Positions 26,827 through 39,173 of a DNA stretch of 53,551 bases are shown here, in pieces. Both the position numbers and the translations under genes were made by a program. The notes beneath the pieces were generated by a model. The model saw nothing but the letters and a program-made list of their open reading frames with translations, was not told the origin of the DNA and did no database searches. How positions within the stretch are numbered: the first letter of the stretch is position 1; each line of letters starts with the position of its first letter. This stretch comes from Acidobacteriota bacterium (GTDB taxonomy: Bacteria > Acidobacteriota > Terriglobia > Bryobacterales > Bryobacteraceae), in NCBI GenBank assembly GCA_025350695.1, contig JANXXI010000069.1, forward strand, positions 1-53,551, given 5' to 3'.

Positions 26827-27477
26827 ATGGCACTGATATTTCCCAAGCATTTGGACGCAATTGTCCGGACGCTCGCTCCCCTGTTAGGCCTGGGAGCTCT
26901 GAGTGGAATTGGATTGGCTTTCTTTGCCACTCTTCCCGATAATTTGGAGCCCGGCTACATGCCGGTGCAACCTGTACCGTACAGTCACAAATTGCATGCA
27001 GGCAATTTGGGTCTAGATTGTCTGTACTGCCATAGCACGGTAGACAAGTCGTCCTTCGCCGCCGTGCCGGCGAGCCAAACCTGCATGAATTGCCATAAAC
27101 AGGTTAAGAAGGATAGCGAATCAATCCGCCCGATCAAGGAGAGCTTTGAATCTGGGATGCCCGTGAATTGGCTCAAGGTCCACAAGCTACCCGATTACGT
27201 CTATTTCAATCACAAGGCTCATGTGAATGTTGGCGTCAGTTGCGTAAGCTGTCATGGACGAATCGATCAAATGGTGGAAGTTAAGCAGTTCGCAAACCTT
27301 TCCATGAGTTGGTGTCTTGAATGTCATCGGAATCCGGCGCCAAATATCCGGCCCGTTGAATTGGTGACAAAACTCGACTGGAAACCGGAGGGGCGTGATC
27401 CGGCGGACATCGGGCGCGAACTAATTGCCCAGAAACATATTAATCCGCCAACTAACTGCTCGGGGTGCCATCGATGA
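26827..27477 (+). CDS. actA: alternative complex III subunit ActA, pentaheme cytochrome c
   Basis: ActA is the multiheme cytochrome subunit of alternative complex III, a quinol-oxidising complex that replaces bc1. The 216-residue protein has one N-terminal helix (about residues 16-36) that anchors it in the membrane and exports the rest. Five CxxCH sites follow: CLYCH 65-69, CMNCH 86-90, CVSCH 139-143, CLECH 163-167 and CSGCH 211-215. Extra His residues (SHKLHAG, FNHKAH) are likely distal ligands. It is the first gene of the operon and its stop overlaps the actB start. Confidence 0.95.
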   Translation: MALIFPKHLDAIVRTLAPLLGLGALSGIGLAFFATLPDNLEPGYMPVQPVPYSHKLHAGNLGLDCLYCHSTVDKSSFAAVPASQTCMNCHKQVKKDSESIRPIKESFESGMPVNWLKVHKLPDYVYFNHKAHVNVGVSCVSCHGRIDQMVEVKQFANLSMSWCLECHRNPAPNIRPVELVTKLDWKPEGRDPADIGRELIAQKHINPPTNCSGCHR

Positions 27478-30392
27478 TCGTTCAGATTCAAGGAAGCAAG
27501 CAGACCGGCAAGAAGTATTGGCGCAGTCTTGAGGAATTGGCCGATACAACCCAGTTCAAGCAATGGGTTGCTCAGGAGTTTCCCGCCACGGCAGAGGATG
27601 CCGCTGATGGCAATTCCCGCCGCAAGTTTCTAAACATAATGGCTGCTTCCATGGGATTGGCTGGCTTAACGGCTTGCCGCCGTCCTGAGGAGCATATTCT
27701 TCCCTACTCAAAGAGTATCGAAGAACAAATTCCCGGCGTGCCGCTTCGCTACGCTTCAGTCTTTTCTTTGGGCACTCGGGCGCAGGGACTGGTTGTCGAA
27801 TCGAGTGATGGACGTCCCACGAAAATAGAGGGAAATCCGCAACATCCCAATTCGTTAGGCGCAGCCTCGGGTTTTGCCCAGGCTTCTGTTTTGTGCCTTT
27901 ATGATCCGGACCGCTCGCGTTCGGTGCTGGAAGGCGGTAAAGCTTCCAAATGGGAAACTTTCAGCGAATCGTTGAAGGCGCAAAATTGGGGTGACGGTTC
28001 TGGGCTGCGCGTACTCAGCCAAGCTGTGAACTCTCCCACGCTATCAGCTCTCCGCGCGGAAATTCTCACCAAATATCCGAAGTCAGCCTGGGTAGAATAC
28101 GAACCAATCAACGAAGACACGTTGCTTGCAGGCTCCGCCCTCGCTTTCGGGCAGCGCCTGCGCCCAGTATACGATCTCGAAAAAGCCAAGGTGATTCTTT
28201 CCCTGGATAGCGACTTCTTGTTGCACGATTCTCCTGGACTTGAGGCGACTCGCGGATATGCCAAAGGCCGACGGAACGCCGAAGGGTTGAGCCGGCTGTA
28301 CGTTGCGGAGTCGAATTATTCGATAACCGGCGCCCAGGCCGATCATCGTTTGAGGTTAAAACCTTCGGAAGTGCTTGGATTTGCGAGCGATTTGGCGCGC
28401 GAAGCGGGGGCTCTGCCTCAGGGACTTAAGATCCTCGGCCAAAACGACAAATTCGGAAAGTGGACCAAATCAGTAGCCAAGGATTTGCTCGAAAACAAGG
28501 GTTCCGCTGTCGTAATTGCCGGAGCCCGGCAGCCCGCCGAAGTGCACGCGATTGCGGCACTGCTAAATCAAATCATTGGCGCAATAGGCTCCACTGTAAA
28601 TTACATTAAGCACGAACGGGAGTCGATGTCAGCTGGAGTTACTAAGCTGTCCGAGGATCTTACCGCAGGCATCGTAAAAACAGTCGTGATTTTGGGCGGT
28701 AATCCTGCCTACGACGCGCCTGCCCACACAAATCTGGCGGCGAATCTAAAAAAAGCCTCTGTCATTCACCTCGGCTATGAAGTCAACGAAACAGCCAAAC
28801 TTGCCGGTTGGCACATTCCGGAAGCACACTATCTTGAAAGTTGGGGCGACGCTCTGTGTGACGGAGTTGCCTCAATTCAGCAGCCGTTAATTGAACCAAT
28901 GTTTGGCGGAAAGTCGGCCATCGAAGTGGCCGCACTTCTGGCGGGTCTGAGCCCGAAGGGCTTTGAACTGGTTAAATCCCATTGGAAGCTCGATGACAAG
29001 TCTTGGCGCAAAGCGTTGCATGATGGTGTAATTGCCTCCGCGAAGGACGATTTCGTTAAAGTGGTGGCCGACCCGAAAAGAGTAGACGCCGCCGTTAGCG
29101 CCGCGCCAAAACTTGTATCGGGAATGGAAGTAGCCTTCTTTCCTAGCGCAACCGCCTATGATGGCCGCTTCGCCAATAATGGCTGGCTGCAGGAAACGCC
29201 CGATCCAATGCTGAAGTTGGTTTGGGACAACGCCGGAATCATTTCACCTAAGACCGCAAAAGTGCTTGCTGTAGAGAATGGCGACATGCTTGCCATCACA
29301 GTCGCAGGCAAAACCGCGAGCGTGCCTGCGATGATATTGCCGGGTCATGCCGATGAAACCGTTTCGGTAACGCTCGGTTATGGACGCAAGGAAATCGGTC
29401 GAGTTGGCAAGGATGTGGGTGTAGACGTCTACCCGATTCGCGCTAACGCCGGAATGGGTTTTTCCGCGGCTCAGATCGTGAAAGGCTCCGGTCACCATAA
29501 CCTCGTCACTACCCAGGAACATTTCTCGATGGAAGCGCGCCCTATTGTTCGCGAAGCGAAGGTTGAGGATTATCATCACCACAAGAATTTCGCCACGCAC
29601 GAAGATGAGGAGATCGAGCAATATTCCATCTACGGCTACCACGAATACGATAAGGGTAATCAATGGGGATTAGTTGTCGATCTCAATTCGTGCGTCGGCT
29701 GCAATGCCTGCATCACGGCTTGCCAGGCCGAAAATAACATTCCGATTGTTGGTAAGGATCAAGTCGAACGGGGCAGGGAAATGCACTGGATCCGACTGGA
29801 TCGTTATTTCTCCTCAACCAGCGAAGATGAAAACCATGTCGCCAGCGAGGATCCGCAGGTGGTCTACCAACCGATGGCTTGTCAGCAGTGCGAAACGGCG
29901 CCTTGCGAATCGGTTTGCCCGGTCGCAGCTACCAACCATTCACCTGAAGGATTGAACGATATGGCCTATAACCGCTGCGTGGGCACCCGGTATTGCGCCA
30001 ATAACTGTCCTTTCAAGGTGCGCCGCTTCAACTACTTGAATTGGCACAAGGATATGGAAGAGTCCACCAAAATGGTCTTCAATCCGAACGTGACCGTGCG
30101 TATGCGTGGAATCATGGAAAAGTGCACCTACTGTGTCCAACGCGTACAGGAAGCAAAGATCCAAGCAAAAGTGGAAGGCCGCCGTGATCTTCGAGACGGT
30201 GAAATAAAAACCGCTTGCCAGCAGACTTGTCCCGCCGAGGCAATTACCTTTGGCAATATTAACGATCCAAACAGCGCCGTGTCTAAATTAAAGAAGAACG
30301 ACTTGAACTACGGACTGCTGAAAGAATTGAATTTGAAGCCGCGCACCAGCTACCTGGCGAAGTTGCGCAACCCGAACCCGGAGCTCGCATAA
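27474..30392 (+). CDS. actB: alternative complex III subunit ActB, molybdopterin-like plus iron-sulfur protein
   Basis: A 972-residue periplasmic subunit. A Tat-type signal with R49-R50 ([15 protein letters not shown]) is followed by a molybdopterin-oxidoreductase-like region of about 650 residues. In known ActB proteins this region holds no cofactor. From about residue 730 comes a ferredoxin-like part with four cysteine groups: [35 protein letters not shown] and CTYCVQRV with CQQTC. These are the ligands of the iron-sulfur relay. ATG 27474 overlaps the actA stop as ATGA; a GTG at 27465 is in frame but less likely. The fusion of the two parts is normal for this subunit. It passes electrons between the quinol-binding subunits and the hemes. 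Confidence 0.94.
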
Positions 30393-30393
30393 G

Positions 30394-31785
30394 ATGGCTC
30401 AACAATTGACCCAGGAAATCGAAGAAAAAGACCGCCTGGCGCTGGCTGAGATGAACCAGCCGCTAATACTCGGCAACCCCTCCTATCACGATGTCACCCG
30501 CGTCGTAAGTGAAATCGTCGAAGTTCGCACTCCGAAAATTTGGTACATGGCTCTCGCGCTAACCGGCGGGATCACGGCCATTCTCGGTTCCATGCTCGCC
30601 TATCTGGTTTGGAATGGCATCGGCGTTTGGGGTAACAACTCTCCTGTTGGTTGGGGTTGGGACATCACCAACTTTGTGTTCTGGATCGGTATCGGCCACG
30701 CTGGAACTTTGATCTCTGCTATTTTGTTTTTGTTCCGCCAAAAATGGCGCACTTCGATCAATCGTTTCGCCGAAGCCATGACTCTGTTTGCCGTGGCGTG
30801 CGCCGGTATCTACCCGGCATTCCACGTTGGCCGCCCTTGGCGCGCCTACTGGCTGTTCCCCATCCCTATTGCCGATCACGGCATGTGGCAGAATTTCCGC
30901 AGCCCGCTTGAATGGGACGTTTTTGCCGTTTCGACTTATGCTACGGTGTCCTTGCTGTTCTGGTTTGTAGGTTTAATTCCAGATCTGGCCATTCTCCGCG
31001 ATCGCGCAACCACTAAAATACGCCGCACTATTTATGGCGTGCTTAGCCTCGGCTGGAGAAGTTCATCCACTCACTGGAAGAATTACGAAAAGGCTTACAC
31101 GATCCTTGCGGGTATTTCAACACCGCTAGTGCTCTCGGTTCACACCATCGTATCATTCGACTTCGCGGTTGCAATCCTCCCAGGTTGGCACACCACAATT
31201 TTTCCTCCATACTTCGTGGCGGGAGCCATTTTCTCGGGTTTTGCCATGGTTGTCACACTGATGGTAATTGCCCGTTGGGTTTTTAAGGTCGAACACATTG
31301 TAACCATGAAGCACTTGGAGAATATGTGCAAAGTCATGGTGGCCACCGGCACCATAGTCGGTTACGCTTATGCCACGGAAATGTTTATCGCGTGGTACTC
31401 CGGGAATCCTTACGAGCAATTCACTTTCATTAATCGCGCCACCGGCCCCTATTACTGGGCTTATTGGATCATGATTTCCTGCAACGTTCTCTCGCCCCAG
31501 CTGTTCTGGTTTAAGAGAATGCGAACCTCCATCCCCGTAATGTTCGTAGTCTCCATCATTGTGAACATCGGCATGTGGTTTGAGCGCTTCGTGATTATCG
31601 CCACCAGCTTGCACCGTGACTTTCTTCCGTCGAGCTGGGGTTATTTCCATCCGACAATTGTTGACATCTTGACGTTCTTTGGAACGTTCGGCTTATTCTT
31701 AACTCTGTTCCTGCTCTTCCTCCGCTTCTTGCCTATGATTGCCGTGCAAGAGGTTAAGGGGACCATGGCGGCGGAAAAACATTAA
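30394..31785 (+). CDS. actC: alternative complex III subunit ActC, NrfD-like quinol-binding membrane protein
   Basis: The 463-residue integral membrane protein of the NrfD/PsrC family has about ten helices, consistent with the two four-helix bundles of ActC plus extra helices. It is one of the two quinol-binding subunits. Typical features are [20 protein letters not shown], the GH-rich helix common to NrfD proteins, and [20 protein letters not shown] later in the chain. The ATG follows the actB stop after one base. It forms the membrane core together with ActF. Confidence 0.94.
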
Positions 31786-31797
31786 AGAGGACGAGCA

Positions 31798-32364
31798 ATG
31801 ATAAAAGCACTCATTGAAAAGCTCCTGACCCCGAAGAAGGGCACGTTCGGCGTAGCGGCCAACTTCGAGTCGGTGGAAGGCATCTTGTCGGCTGTCATGC
31901 GGGCTCGGGCAGAAGGTTATACCAAGCTTGAAACTTACACGCCGTTTCCGATCCATGGCATGGACGAAGCTCTTGGCAATCCCCCTTCTGTCCTGGGCTA
32001 CATCGTGATTTGCATCGGACTTTGCGGCACTGCCACGGCTATCGCGCTCACTTACTGGGTGGGAACCATCGCGTACCCATTAGTCATCGGGGGCAAGCCT
32101 TTGTGGGCAATCGAGTACACACTGCCGATCATCTTTGAGCTAACCATTCTGTTTTCCGCCTTCGCGTCAGTGCTCGGAATGCTTCACTTGAACCGGCTGC
32201 CTCAGTTCTACCACGCGCTGTTCAACTATTCAGGCTTCTCCAAGATCTCCGACGACGCGTTCGTTTTGGTCATCGAATCGCAGGATCCGAAATTCAACGC
32301 CGAGAGGGCCAAGCAGTTCCTAAATTCTATCGGTGGTCATGTGGTTGAGGTGGTGGAGGAATAA
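31798..32364 (+). CDS. actD: alternative complex III subunit ActD (DUF3341)
   Basis: The 188-residue protein has a soluble start (FGVAANFESVEGILSAVMRA) that resembles other ActD/DUF3341 proteins, including ETYTPFPIHGMDEALG. Two membrane helices follow at about residues 60-85 and 100-125, with a soluble C-terminus. It is a structural membrane subunit of the complex, without cofactors. GAGGACGAGC provides the ribosome binding site. The stop overlaps the actE start as TAATG. Confidence 0.93.
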   Translation: MIKALIEKLLTPKKGTFGVAANFESVEGILSAVMRARAEGYTKLETYTPFPIHGMDEALGNPPSVLGYIVICIGLCGTATAIALTYWVGTIAYPLVIGGKPLWAIEYTLPIIFELTILFSAFASVLGMLHLNRLPQFYHALFNYSGFSKISDDAFVLVIESQDPKFNAERAKQFLNSIGGHVVEVVEE

Positions 32365-32960
32365 TGAAATCTTCATCTCTTGGATTCGGAGTGCTAGCGA
32401 CAGTCCTATTCCTGTCAGCCTGTTCCGGTCCGCGCCAAACCCCGTTTGAGATTATTCCGGACATGGACCACCAAGCCAAATGGAAGGCGCAGATGGAAAA
32501 CCCCTTCTTTGCTGATCGGCGGGCTAGCCGCAAACCGGTTGAAGGAACGGTTGCACAGGGCAAACTGTTTGACGATGACGCTTATCACTTAGGTGTGGTT
32601 GATGGCACATACATTGGACGCAATCCGGAAAAATTGACGAAAGAACTTGTGGTATACGGGCAACGCAAATTCAACACATATTGCTCACCCTGTCATGGCC
32701 AAACGGGCGACGGGAAAGGTATCGTCGCGCAGCGAAGCCTGTGGCAAGTCGGAAATTTACAAGAGCCGCGGGTGAAGGACTATCCCGATGGCGAGATTTA
32801 CTCGATTGCCAGCGACGGGCGCCGTCAAATGAACGGCTATCGAAATCAAGTCAGCGACCATGACAGATGGGCGATTGTTTCCTACGTTCGAGCGCTACAA
32901 CGCGCAAGCGCCGCGCCGCTAACCGATGTCCCAACGGAACTGCAAGGTTCATTGCACTAA
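32364..32960 (+). CDS. actE: alternative complex III subunit ActE, monoheme cytochrome c lipoprotein
   Basis: The 198-residue lipoprotein has a signal sequence ending in the lipobox LSAC (Cys20). One heme site, CSPCH, sits near residue 110 in KFNTYCSPCHGQTGDGKG. RRQMNGY near residue 153 offers the likely methionine ligand. It is the terminal cytochrome of alternative complex III and hands electrons to the oxidase or a mobile carrier. It starts at the last base of the actD stop (TAATG). Confidence 0.94.
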   Translation: MKSSSLGFGVLATVLFLSACSGPRQTPFEIIPDMDHQAKWKAQMENPFFADRRASRKPVEGTVAQGKLFDDDAYHLGVVDGTYIGRNPEKLTKELVVYGQRKFNTYCSPCHGQTGDGKGIVAQRSLWQVGNLQEPRVKDYPDGEIYSIASDGRRQMNGYRNQVSDHDRWAIVSYVRALQRASAAPLTDVPTELQGSLH

Positions 32961-32981: not shown

Positions 32982-34184
32982 ATGGCTCACGATCATCCTC
33001 ACGATACACCGGTGGACAGTTTCCGCATTCCAGCAGGGACTTGGACCCACGTCCGCAACGTTTTGGCGGCACTTGCGTTAGTCGGTTGGGCGGCCTGTTT
33101 GGCGGGTTACCTACAAAATCAAGACCAGTTCGCCAGATCCTACTTGGTCGCATTTTTGGCCACTATCTTCATGGCCCTTGGCGGCATGCTTTTTGTAATG
33201 ATCCAACACTTGACCAATTCCGTCTGGAGTGTCACGGTGAGACGGCTGATGGAATCGTTGATGATGTCGCTGCCGGTAGGCGCCGTGCTGTTTATTCCGA
33301 TCGCCTTAAACACGCATTCCCTCTACGAGTGGGTTCATCCAGAAGTCGCCAACCATTTCAGCGCGACGAAAGCAGCCTATCTATCCGAGCGCGGCTTCAT
33401 TTTGCGAGCCTTCATTTGCTTCTTCATCTGGACACTGCTCTCCTGGCGTCTTTGGTCCATATCCCGACAGCAGGACCACTCAGGGGCGGCCAGTCTTTGT
33501 TATTCCGCGGCCAAAGTAAGTGCTCCCGGAGTCTTTTTCTTATTCTTATCCGCAACCCTGGCGGCGTTCGATTGGAACATGTCGATCAACCCCCACTGGT
33601 ATTCAACGATTTACGGAGTGTACTGTTTAACCGGCGGGGCTTGGGCCTTTTTTGCGATTCTAATCTGGATCTGTCTAAGGCTTCGGGCCAATGGGATTCT
33701 TACTAACTCCATCACGCCCGAACATTATCATGATCTCGGCAAGTGGCAATTTGCTCTTACTGCGTTCTGGGCCTACATTGCCTTTTCTCAGTACATGTTA
33801 ATTTGGTACGCCAATCTTCCTGAAGAGACCATCTATTACAAAGTGAGGCTCGAAGGTTCATGGCAATTCTTAACCAAAGCTCTTCCTCTGATTCATTTCA
33901 TCTTTCCATTCTTCCTGTTGATAGCCCGGCCAATCAAGCGGAACTTGTCAGTCCTTGGATTCGTCGCCGCTTATGTATTGATCGTTCACTATTTAGATGT
34001 CTATTGGATGATCATGCCTAACTATTTCAAAAGTGGAATCCAGTTTCATTGGTTGGATTTGGCTTCCGTCGTTGCCGTCGTTGGGACTTTCGGCTTCTTT
34101 TTCTGGCAGCGTTTGAAGGATGCGCCAATTGTTCCCGAAGGCGATCCGCGTTTAGCCAAGTCTTTGAGGTTCCACAATGTCTAA
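32982..34184 (+). CDS. actF: alternative complex III subunit ActF, NrfD-like membrane protein
   Basis: The 400-residue membrane protein with about ten helices is the second, divergent NrfD-like subunit of alternative complex III. Features of the family include MFVMIQHLTNSVWSVTVRR and the segment WYANLPEETIYY in a loop between helices. Its end overlaps the next gene by eight bases, which ties the complex III genes to the oxidase genes. Confidence 0.93.
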   Translation: MAHDHPHDTPVDSFRIPAGTWTHVRNVLAALALVGWAACLAGYLQNQDQFARSYLVAFLATIFMALGGMLFVMIQHLTNSVWSVTVRRLMESLMMSLPVGAVLFIPIALNTHSLYEWVHPEVANHFSATKAAYLSERGFILRAFICFFIWTLLSWRLWSISRQQDHSGAASLCYSAAKVSAPGVFFLFLSATLAAFDWNMSINPHWYSTIYGVYCLTGGAWAFFAILIWICLRLRANGILTNSITPEHYHDLGKWQFALTAFWAYIAFSQYMLIWYANLPEETIYYKVRLEGSWQFLTKALPLIHFIFPFFLLIARPIKRNLSVLGFVAAYVLIVHYLDVYWMIMPNYFKSGIQFHWLDLASVVAVVGTFGFFFWQRLKDAPIVPEGDPRLAKSLRFHNV

Positions 34185-34686
34185 GAAATTTGCAGAGCAC
34201 GATCATCTGAAGCATGTTCCGCCCGGCACTCAGTTTGATGACTCCGAACCACGGAGCGGTCTGATTCTCGTGGGTGCGCTGGTCAGTGCCGTTTTTATTA
34301 TTCTCACCATAAATGGAGTCAACTCCTACTACACTTGGTATAGAGATAAAGCGCTTTACGAAAAACAGCTCGCCCCGCCATCTGTGGAGCTCAAGGTTAT
34401 CCGCGCGCAGGAAGATCAAGCACTCAACAACTACGGTTATGTGGAAAAGGACAAGGCAATCGTGAGGTTACCAATCGCACGAGCCATAGATTTAGTGGTG
34501 ACGGAATCTTCCGAAGGCAAAGAGAGATATCCGATTGCCGCGAAGGTTGTTCCACCACCGAAGGCTGACGACGCCCCCGCTGCTGCCGGGGCCGCCCCGG
34601 CGGGAACTCCGGCGGCTGGGCCAACTCCGGCAGCCTCACCAACTCCCGCACCGCCCAAGGAAATGCCGGCGAAGGAAAAGCATTGA
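34177..34686 (+). CDS. single-helix membrane protein between complex III and oxidase genes
   Basis: The 169-residue protein has a short cytoplasmic start rich in His, one helix at about residues 27-50, and a periplasmic part. The best-conserved-looking stretch is QALNNYGYVEKDKAIVRLPI, which ends in RAIDLVVTE. Similar modules accompany act-cox clusters in other phyla (general recollection, not searched). The last 50 residues are low-complexity Pro/Ala/Thr. It overlaps actF at the start and sco at the end. Its position suggests a small accessory or assembly subunit, perhaps in place of actG, linking the complex to the oxidase. The precise role is unknown. Confidence 0.75.
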   Translation: MSKKFAEHDHLKHVPPGTQFDDSEPRSGLILVGALVSAVFIILTINGVNSYYTWYRDKALYEKQLAPPSVELKVIRAQEDQALNNYGYVEKDKAIVRLPIARAIDLVVTESSEGKERYPIAAKVVPPPKADDAPAAAGAAPAGTPAAGPTPAASPTPAPPKEMPAKEKH

Positions 34687-35492
34687 TCTCAAAGATCTCA
34701 GTTGCGTTGCTTTTTGCAGGTCTTGTGCTGGCGAGCGGACCCACGGATCCCTCGGTAGTTCCCCAAGAACTTGTTGGAGTGGGTATTGATGAGAAACTGG
34801 GTACCCAACTGGATTTGGATCTCACTTTTATGGGCGCGGATGGCCATAACACGTCCTTGCGGCCATTCTTTAGCAAGCAGGGACGGCCGGTGGTTCTGGT
34901 CTTCGCGTATTACACTTGCCCTATGCTGTGTTCGATGGTCCTTAACGGCGCCTCCCAGTCTTTTCGAGAGCTCTCATGGACCATCGGAAATGAGTTCGAC
35001 GTAATAACCATCAGCATCGACCCGCGCGACGATTGGCAATTGGCTCTAAAGAAACAGCAGTCCTATTTGACGAACTACGAGAAATCAGCCACCGGATGGC
35101 GATTCTTTTCCGATTATGCGGGCCACGCAAAAATGTTGGCCGATCAGGCAGGATTCAAATACAAGTGGGACGGCACAAAAGAACAGTATGCACACGCTGC
35201 GGCGATGATTGTTCTCACCCCAGAAGGTGTCATCTCGCGCTACCTTTACGGGGTCAGATACAAGAGCCGCGACTTGAAGCTGGCTCTCACTGAGGCTAGC
35301 CAATCGAGAACCGGAATTTCCTTTGAGAAGCTCTTACTTTACTGTTTCCACTACGATCCGAATGCAAGATCGTACGTCTTTTTCGCCACCAATCTAATGC
35401 GCGGTGGAGGCGCTCTTGGTGTCGTGATTTTGGGTTTGATTCTTTGGCGTCTGTTTAAGTCCGAGAACGAAAAATTGAGGATGGCACAATGA
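34683..35492 (+). CDS. sco: SCO1/SenC-type copper chaperone for cytochrome oxidase
   Basis: SCO proteins deliver copper to the CuA site of oxidase subunit II or keep its cysteines reduced. The 269-residue protein has an N-terminal signal, then a thioredoxin-like fold with the copper-binding CPMLC (Cys-x3-Cys) in AYYTCPMLCSM and the third ligand His in QYAHAAAMIV. A C-terminal helix near residues 238-256 anchors it. The start codon is TTG 34683, overlapping the preceding stop as TTGA; there is no upstream alternative. Its stop overlaps coxB. Confidence 0.92.
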   Translation: MISKISVALLFAGLVLASGPTDPSVVPQELVGVGIDEKLGTQLDLDLTFMGADGHNTSLRPFFSKQGRPVVLVFAYYTCPMLCSMVLNGASQSFRELSWTIGNEFDVITISIDPRDDWQLALKKQQSYLTNYEKSATGWRFFSDYAGHAKMLADQAGFKYKWDGTKEQYAHAAAMIVLTPEGVISRYLYGVRYKSRDLKLALTEASQSRTGISFEKLLLYCFHYDPNARSYVFFATNLMRGGGALGVVILGLILWRLFKSENEKLRMAQ

Positions 35493-36433
35493 ACGAATGG
35501 CTCCGGTCAACTTTACCGATAGTGGGCAGTGAACACGCTAGGGATATTGATACTTTTTATTTCTTCGTTTTCTATCTCAGTCTATTTTTCTTCATCATCG
35601 TAGGTGGTTTGGCTGTCTATTTTCCGATTAAGTACCGGTTGAAGCCGGGCGAGACTCGCCGCTCCGCGCACATCACCGACAATTTTTTCCTGGAAATGCT
35701 GTGGACGGTAGTTCCTTCGCTTCTCTGCTTCGTCCTGTTTTTCTGGGGCTTTAACACCTATCTGGCTGCCTTTACCGTTCCTAACGATGCGATGGAGATT
35801 TATGTTCGAGGCCGCAAATGGAATTGGACATTCGAGTATCCTGACGGCATGGCCGGCGGCGGTACGCTCTACGTGCCTCTCAACAGACCAATCAAGTTGA
35901 TTATGGACAGTGAGGACGTGCTTCACGCCTTCTACATCCCCGCTATGCGGATCAAGCAAGACGTGATTCCGGGCCGTTATGTTTATATGACCTTTACTCC
36001 AACCGTAAAAGGCGAATTCCAAATATTTTGCGCCGAATACTGCGGCAAGGACCATTCCGGAATGTTGGCTATGCTGAAGGTGATGGATGACGCCGAATAT
36101 GAAGTCTTCAAGCGTGAGGGACCGCCAGAGTATAAAACAATGGATCCCAAGCTCATTGGAGAAACCATTTATAAAACCCGCGGTTGTCAGAGTTGCCACT
36201 CCCTTGACGGGACCAAAGGCGACGGTCCTTCTTTCAAAGGCATATGGGGCAAGACTGAACAGTTCGCGGACGGCACCAGCGGCGTGGTAGACGAGAATTA
36301 CATCCGGCAGTCCGTATTGGAGCCTCAAGCGAAGGTCGTCAAAGGCTTCGAACCCGTCATGCCGACTTTCCAAGGATCGCTTCGACCGGTTGAAATTAAC
36401 GGTATCATCGCATTTATAAAGGGCCAGAAGTAA
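35489..36433 (+). CDS. coxB: cytochrome c oxidase subunit II with fused cytochrome c (caa3 type)
   Basis: This 314-residue subunit receives electrons. Two N-terminal helices (about residues 22-45 and 65-87) are followed by a cupredoxin domain with the CuA ligands FCAEYCGKDHSGM and an upstream His in DVLHAFYIP. A C-terminal cytochrome c domain has CQSCH (near residue 233) and the methionine segment PVMPTFQGSL. The fused heme makes it a caa3-type oxidase. ATG overlaps the sco stop as ATGA; coxA follows after nine bases with AAAGGAG. Confidence 0.96.
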   Translation: MNEWLRSTLPIVGSEHARDIDTFYFFVFYLSLFFFIIVGGLAVYFPIKYRLKPGETRRSAHITDNFFLEMLWTVVPSLLCFVLFFWGFNTYLAAFTVPNDAMEIYVRGRKWNWTFEYPDGMAGGGTLYVPLNRPIKLIMDSEDVLHAFYIPAMRIKQDVIPGRYVYMTFTPTVKGEFQIFCAEYCGKDHSGMLAMLKVMDDAEYEVFKREGPPEYKTMDPKLIGETIYKTRGCQSCHSLDGTKGDGPSFKGIWGKTEQFADGTSGVVDENYIRQSVLEPQAKVVKGFEPVMPTFQGSLRPVEINGIIAFIKGQK

Positions 36434-36442
36434 AGGAGTCTT

Positions 36443-38080
36443 ATGGCAGACGTACTACATCATCAAATTCATGCCGCATCGGACCACCGCGAAGTCGACT
36501 ATCTGAGCGACGGACGCGGCATCCGGGACTGGCTTTACACCGTTGATCACAAACGTATCGGTGTGATGTACCTGTTTTTCATCATACTGTCGTTCTTTGT
36601 CGGCGGAATGCTGGCACTGGCTATACGTTTGGAACTGCTCTATCCGGGCCGCACCATCATGGATGCTGAGACCTACAACCGTGTCTTTACTTTGCACGGT
36701 GCGGTGATGGTTTTTCTATTCATCATTCCATCGATTCCCGCCGCTCTTGGGAATTTCGTACTTCCTTTAATGCTGGGGGCAAAAGACGTTGCCTTCCCCA
36801 AACTAAACCTCGCTAGCTTCTATATCTATTGTCTGGGAGCCACGATGATGATCGGAGCTATCATTAGCGGCGGCGTCGACACTGGTTGGACTTTCTACAC
36901 TCCGTATTCAACTTCCACTAATGGCGCCGTAACTCTAACCGCCATGGGCGTGTTCACACTTGGTTTCTCTTCCATTTTCACGGGCATCAACTTTATCGCA
37001 ACGATCCATAAACTCCGTGCGCCCGGTATGGGATGGTTTGAAATGCCGCTATTCGTGTGGGGGATTTATTCCACTTCAGTCATCCAGGTTTTGGCGACTC
37101 CGGTAATTGGCATAACCATGGTTTTGTTGGGGCTCGAACGCGCCTTCGGCATAGGGATCTTTGATCCTCGCATCGGCGGCGATCCGGTTCTGTTCCAACA
37201 TTTCTTCTGGTTCTATTCTCACCCGGCTGTTTACATTATGATTTTGCCTGGCATGGCAATTATCTCGGAAGTCATCCCTACCTTCTCACACCGGACCATT
37301 TTCGGTTATCGCGGAATCGCATTTAGCTCGGTAGCGATCGCTTTGGTCAGCTTCATCGTTTGGGGACATCACATGTTCACCAGCGGTCAGTCGCAATTGA
37401 TCAACGCTGTGTTTTCCTTCCTCACTTTTCTGGTCGGTATTCCTTCGGGCATCAAGGTCTTTAACTGGGTTGCGACCATGTATAAAGGCCGGATCACGCT
37501 TAAGGCTCCGATGCTTTTCGCCATCAGTTTCCTCTTGCTTTTCACTATCGGTGGGCTCACTGGTCTATTCCTCGGATCGTTATCGATCGACATCCACCTG
37601 CACGACACTTACTTTGTTGTCGCCCATTTCCACTACGTGATGATGGGCGGTACCGTCATCGCATTCCTGGCCGGCCTGCATTACTGGTGGCCCAAGATGT
37701 TCGGACGTATGTACAACGAAAGGTTGGCGGCTATCAGCTGCGCGCTAATCTTCGTCGGCTTCAATACCACGTTCCTTACTCAATTTGTATTGGGCAGCCG
37801 GGGCATGCCTCGCCGTTACTACAACTATTTAGATCAATTCCAGCAACTCCATATGTACTCCACGTTTGGTTCCTGGATTCTTGGGGCTGGGTTCTTCCTC
37901 ATGGCCGGATACCTGCTGGCTTCTCTGCGGGGGCCGAAAAATGCCCCTATGGATCCCTGGGGCGGAACGACTCTAGAATGGCAAACACAGTCACCGCCGA
38001 TCACCCACAATTTCCACGATGTGCCTGTGCTTAAACATGCGCCATACGACTATAGAAATATTCCTCAGGGGGAGGCGTAA
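36443..38080 (+). CDS. coxA: cytochrome c oxidase subunit I, A2-type
   Basis: The 545-residue catalytic subunit has twelve helices and the heme-copper ligands: TLHGAVMVF for low-spin heme, [14 protein letters not shown] for the CuB His-Tyr cross-link region, WGHHMFTSG for CuB, and [17 protein letters not shown] for the two heme irons. In the A1 family the residue after HP is Glu, the proton gate of the D-channel. Here it is Ala and the YS pair precedes HP, the hallmark of A2-type oxidases such as the caa3 enzyme of Rhodothermus. It pumps protons while reducing oxygen. Confidence 0.97.
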
Positions 38081-38761
38081 ATGAGCGTCGCCGAAAATAT
38101 TGAACACGGTCACGGCCACGCTGCCGAGCTCAGTCCGTTCCAGCAGCATCATTTCGCAACAGCCCAGCAGCAAAATGAGGCGTCCAAAATTGGGATGTGG
38201 CTTTTTCTCGTCACGGAAGTCCTGCTCTTTGGTGGCTTGTTTGTCGGCTACGGATTGTCGCACGCCAAGTTTCCGGAAGCTTGGAAATCGGCCCATCATC
38301 ACTTACAGCGCGAATTGGGTGCTCTGAACACGGTGGTGCTTCTGGTCTCATCCTTCACGATGGTAATGGCTGTTCAGGCGGCGAAATTAAACCGCCGCAA
38401 ACAATTGATTGGTAACCTCTGGGTAACGATCATCTGCGCCTGCATCTTCCTGGTCGTCAAGTATTTTGAGTACAGCCACAAGTATCATGAGGGCCTACTG
38501 CCCTTCAAAGCTTTCTACAGCTATCAGGGCCCCCAAGTTCCGGGAGAGTTTCATTTCTTCAGTTTCTACTTCATGATGACCGGGCTCCACGGCTTTCACA
38601 TTCTAGGCGGAATCGCTGTACTGCTTTGGGTCCTGAAACGTTCTTATGCGGGCGATTTCACGAGCGCATACTACACCCCGGTCGATCTGATTGGCCTCTA
38701 TTGGCATTTGGTAGATTTGATCTGGATTTATTTGTTCCCACTGCTTTATCTGATTAGCTAG
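38081..38761 (+). CDS. coxC: cytochrome c oxidase subunit III
   Basis: The 226-residue protein has about five helices, a His-rich start and the subunit III signature TGLHGFHILGGIAVL, then YWHLVDLIWIYLFPLLYL at the C-terminus. The ATG follows the coxA stop without a gap. It stabilises subunit I and the oxygen path. Confidence 0.95.
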   Translation: MSVAENIEHGHGHAAELSPFQQHHFATAQQQNEASKIGMWLFLVTEVLLFGGLFVGYGLSHAKFPEAWKSAHHHLQRELGALNTVVLLVSSFTMVMAVQAAKLNRRKQLIGNLWVTIICACIFLVVKYFEYSHKYHEGLLPFKAFYSYQGPQVPGEFHFFSFYFMMTGLHGFHILGGIAVLLWVLKRSYAGDFTSAYYTPVDLIGLYWHLVDLIWIYLFPLLYLIS

Positions 38762-38771
38762 GAGATCGAAA

Positions 38772-39173
38772 ATGAGTTCACACGCAAGCCATCACGACCA
38801 CACAAAACTCTACGCAGGCACGCTGCTAACTCTCCTGGTTCTCACCGGCATAACAGTTGCGGCTTCTTACTTTGATTTCGGTTCGGCCAACGTTGTTGTA
38901 GCGATGTTCATTGCTACGGTTAAGGCCTCCCTTGTCGCGCTTATTTTCATGCATCTAAAAGACGACAAGCCCGTGAACGCTGTCATTTTTTGCGGATCGA
39001 TGGTTTTTCTCAGCATATTTCTTGGCTTTTGCATGCTCGATGTTGATTCCCGTGAAAAAGTTTCCACTGGCAAATTAACCTGGGTCGAGGAACAGGATCG
39101 CGAGGAAGCGAAGAAGAAAGTGAAAGCCTCGCCACCGGCCGGACACAGCGCCCCGGCGGCGGAGCATCATTAG
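38772..39173 (+). CDS. coxD: cytochrome c oxidase subunit IV (prokaryotic type)
   Basis: The 133-residue protein has three short helices and the family segment VVVAMFIATVKASLVALIFM followed by HLKDDKP, as in bacterial CoxF/CyoD-type subunits. The C-terminal tail is charged and ends in a His pair. GGAG lies nine bases before the ATG. It is the last oxidase gene of the operon. Confidence 0.92.
   Translation: MSSHASHHDHTKLYAGTLLTLLVLTGITVAASYFDFGSANVVVAMFIATVKASLVALIFMHLKDDKPVNAVIFCGSMVFLSIFLGFCMLDVDSREKVSTGKLTWVEEQDREEAKKKVKASPPAGHSAPAAEHH

Follow-up and report, generated by a model that had tools for sequence, protein, structure and literature searches.

What is the product of the small open reading frame that stands between the genes of alternative complex III (ACIII) and those of a cytochrome oxidase, and does it hold the two complexes together? 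The question was raised by a stretch of 53,551 nucleotides from an Acidobacteriota bacterium (contig JANXXI010000069.1 of assembly GCA_025350695.1; called the window below), in which a sequence-only reading had marked positions 34177-34686 as coding for an unnamed linker protein, a candidate subunit or assembly factor joining complex III to the oxidase.

The open reading frame and its neighbors

The open reading frame (ORF) stands directly 3' of actF, inside the act cluster of the window, which is composed as follows.

actA, 26827..27477, + strand: five CxxCH heme motifs; 6f0k_A, E=2.9e-57
actB, 27465..30392, + strand: 8k9e_B, E=2.3e-272
actC (NrfD-like), 30394..31785, + strand: PF03916, E=1.6e-26
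actD, 31798..32364, + strand: PF11821, E=5.3e-57
actE, monoheme cytochrome c, 32364..32960, + strand: PF13442 and PF00034; position between actD and actF
actF, 32982..34184, + strand: 6f0k_F, E=4.1e-81
actG, 34177..34686, + strand: product of 169 aa with a single membrane helix (about 27-63), the conserved module at about 70-112, and a tail rich in Pro and Ala at about 121-169
SCO1/SenC family protein, 34683..35492, + strand: PF02630, E=1.3e-9; TTG start assumed
coxB, CuA domain plus C-terminal cytochrome c domain (caa3 type), 35489..36433, + strand: PF00116 and PF00034
coxA, 36443..38080, + strand: PF00115, E=1.1e-152
coxC, 38081..38761, + strand: PF00510, E=1.7e-17
coxD, 38772..39173, + strand: PF03626, E=6.6e-15

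Translation of the ORF gave 169 residues with no internal stop. A single hydrophobic helix was found (the top 19-residue window was 27-45, with a mean hydropathy of 2.58), and the AlphaFold model (mean pLDDT 73, pTM 0.39) places helices at residues 27-63, 70-84, and 100-112, in keeping with the one-helix protein that had been described. The compact motif of that description, NNYGYVEKDKAIVRLPI, occupies residues 84-100, most of it between the last two helices, and the tail at 121-169 is indeed rich in Pro and Ala (59% together). The module at about 70-112 reads helix, YGYV..AIVRLPI, helix; in its general form, helix-YGWVD..GxVRIPI-helix, it is presumed to be periplasmic on the inferred topology. 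The sequence of the window protein, with its one predicted membrane helix, held no CxxCH or other redox cofactor motif.

The overlap with both neighbors was also borne out: actF and the ORF share 8 nt (34177-34184), and the SCO ORF, if it starts at that TTG, shares 4 nt with it (34683-34686). The placement between complex III and oxidase genes was right on the ActF side; on the other side the next gene is that of a SCO1/SenC protein, and CoxB-A-C-D come only after it. The oxidase is of the caa3 type, since CoxB has both a CuA domain and, at its C-terminus, a cytochrome c domain. Elsewhere in the window's own genome lies another ActD-like match, a weak one (32 bits; L356, G000:C132:30181-30657); the profiles showed no act or cox neighbor within 3.5 kb of it, and the same profiles also missed the ActD-like match itself.

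Identification as ActG

Comparison of sequences makes it almost certain that the window protein is ActG, a small accessory subunit of ACIII, encoded here in an ACIII-caa3 operon. Pfam and NCBIfam gave no family match for it, a Foldseek search of the AlphaFold model against the PDB returned one meaningless match (E=7.7), and the sole match of the single sequence among PDB sequences, chain G of 8k9e, named ActG, was weak and not significant (E=0.94). Profiles led to that same chain, the ActG of a solved ACIII, with E=2.6e-9 for 28 relatives, E=1.4e-5 for 7 members of the window's own subtype, and E=4.5e-10 for 79 members. Tyr86, Pro99, and Ala103 were invariant across the 79 ActG sequences. The supposedly unnamed protein is thus an already known, but poorly understood, subunit of ACIII.

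Chain G of 8k9e (also of 8k9f, 8x2j, and 9ilt), which we take to be from Chloroflexus aurantiacus, resembles the window protein in having one helix followed by a Tyr...IPI..RAM module at its end, in the absence of a cofactor motif, and in the position of its gene directly after actF. It differs in being 112 aa long and in belonging to the act-only cluster type, whereas the window ActG has 169 aa, a Pro/Ala tail, and an act-SCO-cox operon. Two regions of one genome in our set (L212 and L213) have the gene orders of both published C. aurantiacus clusters, which is consistent with that presumed origin. The published clusters are actABCDEFG and one with B-E-A-G-SCO1-COX (Caur_0621-0627 and Caur_2133-2144; passages of PMC3150298).

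Rhodothermus marinus has, like the window, an ACIII with a caa3 oxidase operon (passages of PMC5928083). The same passages present its ActG as a subunit with one predicted helix, detected by peptide fingerprint, and as the act-encoded one that lacks density in the map, and state that it is not in all clusters; contrary to this, a passage of PMC9316378 has ActG not present in R. marinus. For Melioribacter roseus, the relevant part of PMC3534657 gives no actG and a fused ActD-ActE.

Genomic distribution of ActG

The sequence-only reading expected homologues in act-cox clusters and named homologues mostly without act or cox genes as the outcome that would speak against it. That outcome was looked for in all samples and was not found; in the first 30 loci, the 80 named loci, and the phylum samples, the relatives sit in act-cox clusters, in the manner of a conserved, subunit-like protein. 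The search based on the single sequence matched 37 of the 199 genomes sampled from the window's phylum. SCO adjoined ActG in 30/30 of the first loci (the window's own included), with ActF upstream in 27 (ActB/ActE in L029 and L030; L024 is cut) and CoxB visible in 28. The scan of named genomes matched 202 stretches, of which 197 were confirmed and the best 80 kept, and each of these best 80 lay beside act and/or cox genes. Five of them showed no cox gene (L038, L047, L074, L078, and L099), ActG being near a contig end in each, and two showed no SCO (L057 and L100).

With profiles, ActG was found in 88 of the 199 Acidobacteriota genomes, all of them among the 141 with ActD. The sample from the phylum of the named locus L060, Ignavibacteriae (Bacteroidota in GTDB; called Bacteroidota-side here), comprised 198 genomes, and its 56 matches all fell among the 147 genomes with ActD; one (G771) covered the helix only, at E=8e-4, far from its ActD. 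Among 251 Chloroflexota genomes 29 matched, 24 of them ActD-positive; a further one (G449) gave no ActD match but has ActF adjoining ActG, and four (G252, G262, G267, and G287) were discounted, being weak matches to the helix region in genomes negative for ActD. In the three phylum samples, act genes were present in every genome in which ActG was matched convincingly. Within the class of Bradyrhizobium, 4 of 190 genomes matched, all beside act and cox genes.

Two later profile searches added 34 loci; in 33 of them ActF lies directly upstream, and in 30 SCO is the next gene. CoxB was next in L256 and L258, and neither SCO nor CoxB was seen next in L250. The usual slot is ActF-ActG-SCO-CoxB. Because the relatives adjoin SCO in all of the first 30 loci and take the same type of slot in other phyla, this placement goes beyond chance. 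A different arrangement was seen in Bradyrhizobium (L094 and L097) and in the matching L241, in which actG heads the cox operon and the act genes lie divergently on the opposite strand; CoxB is next to ActG in L241.

Some relatives carry additional segments. Many Bacteroidota-side ActG proteins (L263-L272) have an N-terminal segment like a transposase helix-turn-helix, for which Pfam gave only HTH_Tnp_1 in L264, at E=0.35 and below its cut-off. The N-terminal domain in L255, L256, and L258 looks fibronectin-like to the eye, Pfam giving only SusE for L256 (E=0.057), and the ActG at L007:1117-1851 has an additional C-terminal domain of about 100 residues with no Pfam match.

Cluster types with and without ActG

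We then annotated 220 loci, namely 140 wider regions and the 80 named loci, which had been selected for ActG; 126 of the 220 had it. The wider regions included 40 from Acidobacteriota that were ActD positive and ActG negative (37 of 53 such genomes, the other 16 being left out), 20 from ActG-positive Acidobacteriota genomes (15 of them away from the ActG cluster), and 40 from the Bacteroidota side (20 ActG negative with a short ActD frame, 10 with a long ActD frame, and 10 ActG positive).

Clusters with a caa3 oxidase and an ActE that was separate or off the contig always had ActG (5 Acidobacteriota, 10 Bacteroidota-side, 15 Chloroflexota, and 72 named loci, ActE being off the contig in 5 of the 72). 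ActG was found in none of the 20 clusters with a separate ActE and a CoxB without heme c (Bacteroidota-side, Flavobacterium-like, and picked as ActG negative), in none of 8 Acidobacteriota clusters with ActC-D-F, a CoxB without heme c, and no ActA/B/E, and in none of 38 clusters with a fused ActD-E. CoxB was seen in 33 of the last group, 9 times without heme c and 24 times of the caa3 type, the caa3 clusters without canonical ActG being 23 Acidobacteriota and 1 Bacteroidota-side. Where no cox gene was seen and ActE was separate, ActG was present in 0 of 17 Acidobacteriota regions (8 of which reach under 5 kb downstream) and in 12 of 21 Chloroflexota regions (10 of the 12 extend >5 kb past ActG). 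In the remaining loci CoxB is cut or unseen (L088, L100, L110, L128, L148, L207, L216, and L240), cox is lost at contig ends, or the cluster is incomplete (L153 and L204). None of the 220 loci was a complete caa3 cluster with a separate ActE but without ActG, and none was an ActG cluster with a complete CoxB without heme c. CoxB follows ActF in the 20 Bacteroidota-side ActG-negative clusters, 240-558 nt separating the end of the ActF profile match from the start of the CoxB one, and in three of them that were read a long CoxB N-terminus takes up much or all of this space.

The requirement for ActG wherever ACIII and an oxidase meet, as a general linker needed in any ACIII-oxidase supercomplex, would suit the position of the gene, its overlaps, and the act and/or cox context of the 80 named loci. 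Such a protein would be expected wherever the two complexes are co-encoded, yet it is absent from the 20 Flavobacterium-like act-cox clusters, chosen as ActG negative, and from the 33 ActD-E-fused clusters with a seen CoxB, and it is present in oxidase-free Chloroflexota clusters. The Flavobacterium-like clusters differ from the window in lacking both ActG and heme c on CoxB (20/20), yet the ACIII-aa3 assembly of F. johnsoniae is reported as a supercomplex in passages of PMC8552683 and PMC5928083. Its act genes stand beside the oxidase operon as in the window (6btm; passages of PMC8552683), but this ACIII, isolated with its aa3 oxidase, is described there as ActA-F only, with a hexaheme ActA. 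The Flavobacterium-like absence and the act-only presence in Chloroflexota led us to drop the linker reading as too broad, and we consider it improbable; what stands of the earlier proposal is the subunit, as ActG of ACIII. The evidence agrees better with a role linked to a single type of oxidase, caa3. The notion that ActG needs a cox operon was likewise ruled out by the act-only Chloroflexota clusters.

Might ActG instead assist in assembling the oxidase, acting together with SCO at the CuA site in CoxB? SCO and then CoxB usually follow it, as the first and later loci show (30/30 and 30/34 for SCO), and in Bradyrhizobium it heads the cox operon. It is, however, a chain of a purified, solved ACIII, it occurs in act-only clusters, and it is absent from 28/28 clusters whose CoxB bears CuA but no heme c (20 Bacteroidota-side and 8 Acidobacteriota), so that this explanation appears very unlikely.

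Several further arrangements were noted. Eight Acidobacteriota loci (L112-L116, L151, L152, and L166) have ActC-D-F beside CoxA-C-D-B, a CoxB without heme c, and no visible ActA/B/E, possibly an act membrane module that serves an oxidase in the absence of the electron-transfer module. In L305, L308, and L313 a cytochrome c stretch that is CoxB-like but lacks CuA sits between ActE and ActF, and seven Chloroflexota loci (L223-L229) have ActA-B-C-D-E with low ActD scores and no ActF, ActG, or cox seen. The CoxB of ActD-E-fused clusters at one point appeared to lack CuA, which was an artefact of a strict CuA pattern, as the sequences show CTVICG and similar; the test was rerun with a wider pattern.

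Heme content of ActA and the location of the tethered cytochrome

ActA had six CxxCH motifs in 19 of the 20 ActG-negative Bacteroidota-side aa3 clusters and seven in the other one. It had five in 11/11 ActG-positive Bacteroidota-side clusters (the 10 above plus G669), in 9/9 ActD-E-fused Bacteroidota-side clusters examined, and in 47 of 48 named ActG clusters with caa3 (three in the remaining one). Five hemes alone do not predict ActG, as they also occur in ActD-E-fused and in act-only Acidobacteriota clusters, the latter including 16 ActG-negative ones without a seen CoxB. According to passages of PMC5928083, the extra domain of the F. johnsoniae ActA seems to stand in for the cytochrome domain of subunit IIc of the caa3 oxidase. 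From this remark, the cluster classes, and the heme counts, a pattern emerges: in cox-linked clusters with a separate ActE, ActG is present if CoxB carries the tethered terminal cytochrome and missing if ActA carries it. Part of the caa3 pattern may already have been published.

On an ActC tree of 167 clusters (FastTree, with long-branch warnings) ActG changes at least four times. Four independent pairs could be drawn, of which on average 3.7 agreed with the combination of caa3 and separate ActE and none disagreed (median p=0.125, in a sign test that cannot reach 0.05 with fewer than six pairs). With only about four changes on the tree, the cluster counts are therefore not independent observations.

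Cytochromes fused to ActG or standing in its slot

Two natural REARRANGEMENTS were encountered, an ActG-cytochrome c fusion in L100 and the slot cytochrome of ActD-E-fused clusters. In L100, a Chloroflexi MAG, the gene after ActF encodes ActG and a cytochrome c domain of 93 residues in a single frame. This domain is 37.5% identical to the end of the window CoxB (E=6.5e-21) and shares 55% identity with the CoxB of L105, against E=0.28 for the window ActE. No SCO and no other cox gene was seen on this 10-kb contig, and none of the other ActG frames read was such a fusion, so that L100 stands as one MAG contig.

In the slot between ActF and SCO, 34 clusters with a fused ActD-E (L122 and 33 others) encode a monoheme cytochrome c with a single helix and a C-terminal end similar to the ActG module, as in GEVIPNRIPVARAVDILCREYA of L122. 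Its profile comparison with ActG, chosen after the motif had been seen, scored 20.8, which was reached by 0/300 column permutations (maximum, 13.4) and by 0/55 windows of ten other families (maximum, 10.7); the probability given by hhalign itself was 12%. The protein shares with ActG the slot, the single membrane helix, and the ActG-like C-terminal stretch, and in L122 its gene adjoins or overlaps those of ActF and SCO in much the way that actG does in the window; unlike ActG, the protein has a cytochrome c domain between helix and motif. The likeness in sequence no more than suggests that the two are homologous.

Proposed docking role

We are evenly balanced on the statement as a whole, that the window protein is the ActG of an ACIII-caa3 operon and docks the tethered electron-accepting cytochrome. 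Anchored by its one membrane helix, ActG would place its module at the electron-exit side of ACIII, where it would dock the acceptor cytochrome tethered to the partner, in the window the C-terminal cytochrome c domain of CoxB. This would let ActE hand electrons straight to the oxidase. The proposed role fits the caa3 association, both rearrangements, and the published geometry, in which ActE of R. marinus is turned toward the cytochrome c domain of subunit IIc of caa3 (passages of PMC5928083). ActG co-occurs with heme c on CoxB with 0 exceptions in 220 loci (cox-linked, separate ActE, and about four independent changes). While the identity as ActG, the conserved slot, and the association with caa3 and a separate ActE come directly from the computations, we infer the topology, the partner in the contact, and the docking role, the last with confidence a little short of even.

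More tentatively still, ActG may be the docking subunit for a tethered cytochrome c feeding the oxidase, with the cytochrome placed in several ways in evolution. It would be carried by CoxB with ActG in trans (caa3), by a slot protein that is anchored in the membrane and has an ActG-like module of its own (ActD-E-fused clusters), by ActG itself (L100), or by ActA, ActG then being absent (the Flavobacterium type).

Against the docking role speak the 24 caa3 clusters with a fused ActD-E and no canonical ActG, and also the 12 Chloroflexota act regions that have ActG without a seen cox gene, which show that it does not serve oxidases only. The ACIII acceptor in phototrophs is auracyanin, as stated for Roseiflexus castenholzii in a passage of PMC8552683, and ActG there would therefore dock another acceptor or be simply structural. 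The latter could apply throughout: ActG would be an ordinary subunit of ACIII, structural or for assembly, that stabilizes ActA/B/E as a module at the membrane, and its association with caa3 would be inherited gene linkage. ActG is a chain of a solved ACIII, it accompanies ActB-ActE-ActA even in clusters without C, D, and F (L213, L214, L217, and others), it occurs in the act-only Chloroflexota clusters, and its independent changes number only about four, all of which would suit such a subunit. We nevertheless hold this explanation to be rather unlikely, given that ActG is missing from 17/17 Acidobacteriota act-only regions with a separate ActE (8 of them with under 5 kb of sequence downstream), that the caa3 association is without exception in the 220 loci, and that the L100 fusion links ActG to an oxidase-type cytochrome.

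The conserved motif lets ActG be spotted in several phyla, though the window protein carries no Pfam or NCBIfam name. If the presence of ActG follows the site at which the cytochrome is tethered, the role of this subunit becomes directly testable, and gene content would, if this is true, predict how an ACIII passes electrons to its oxidase.
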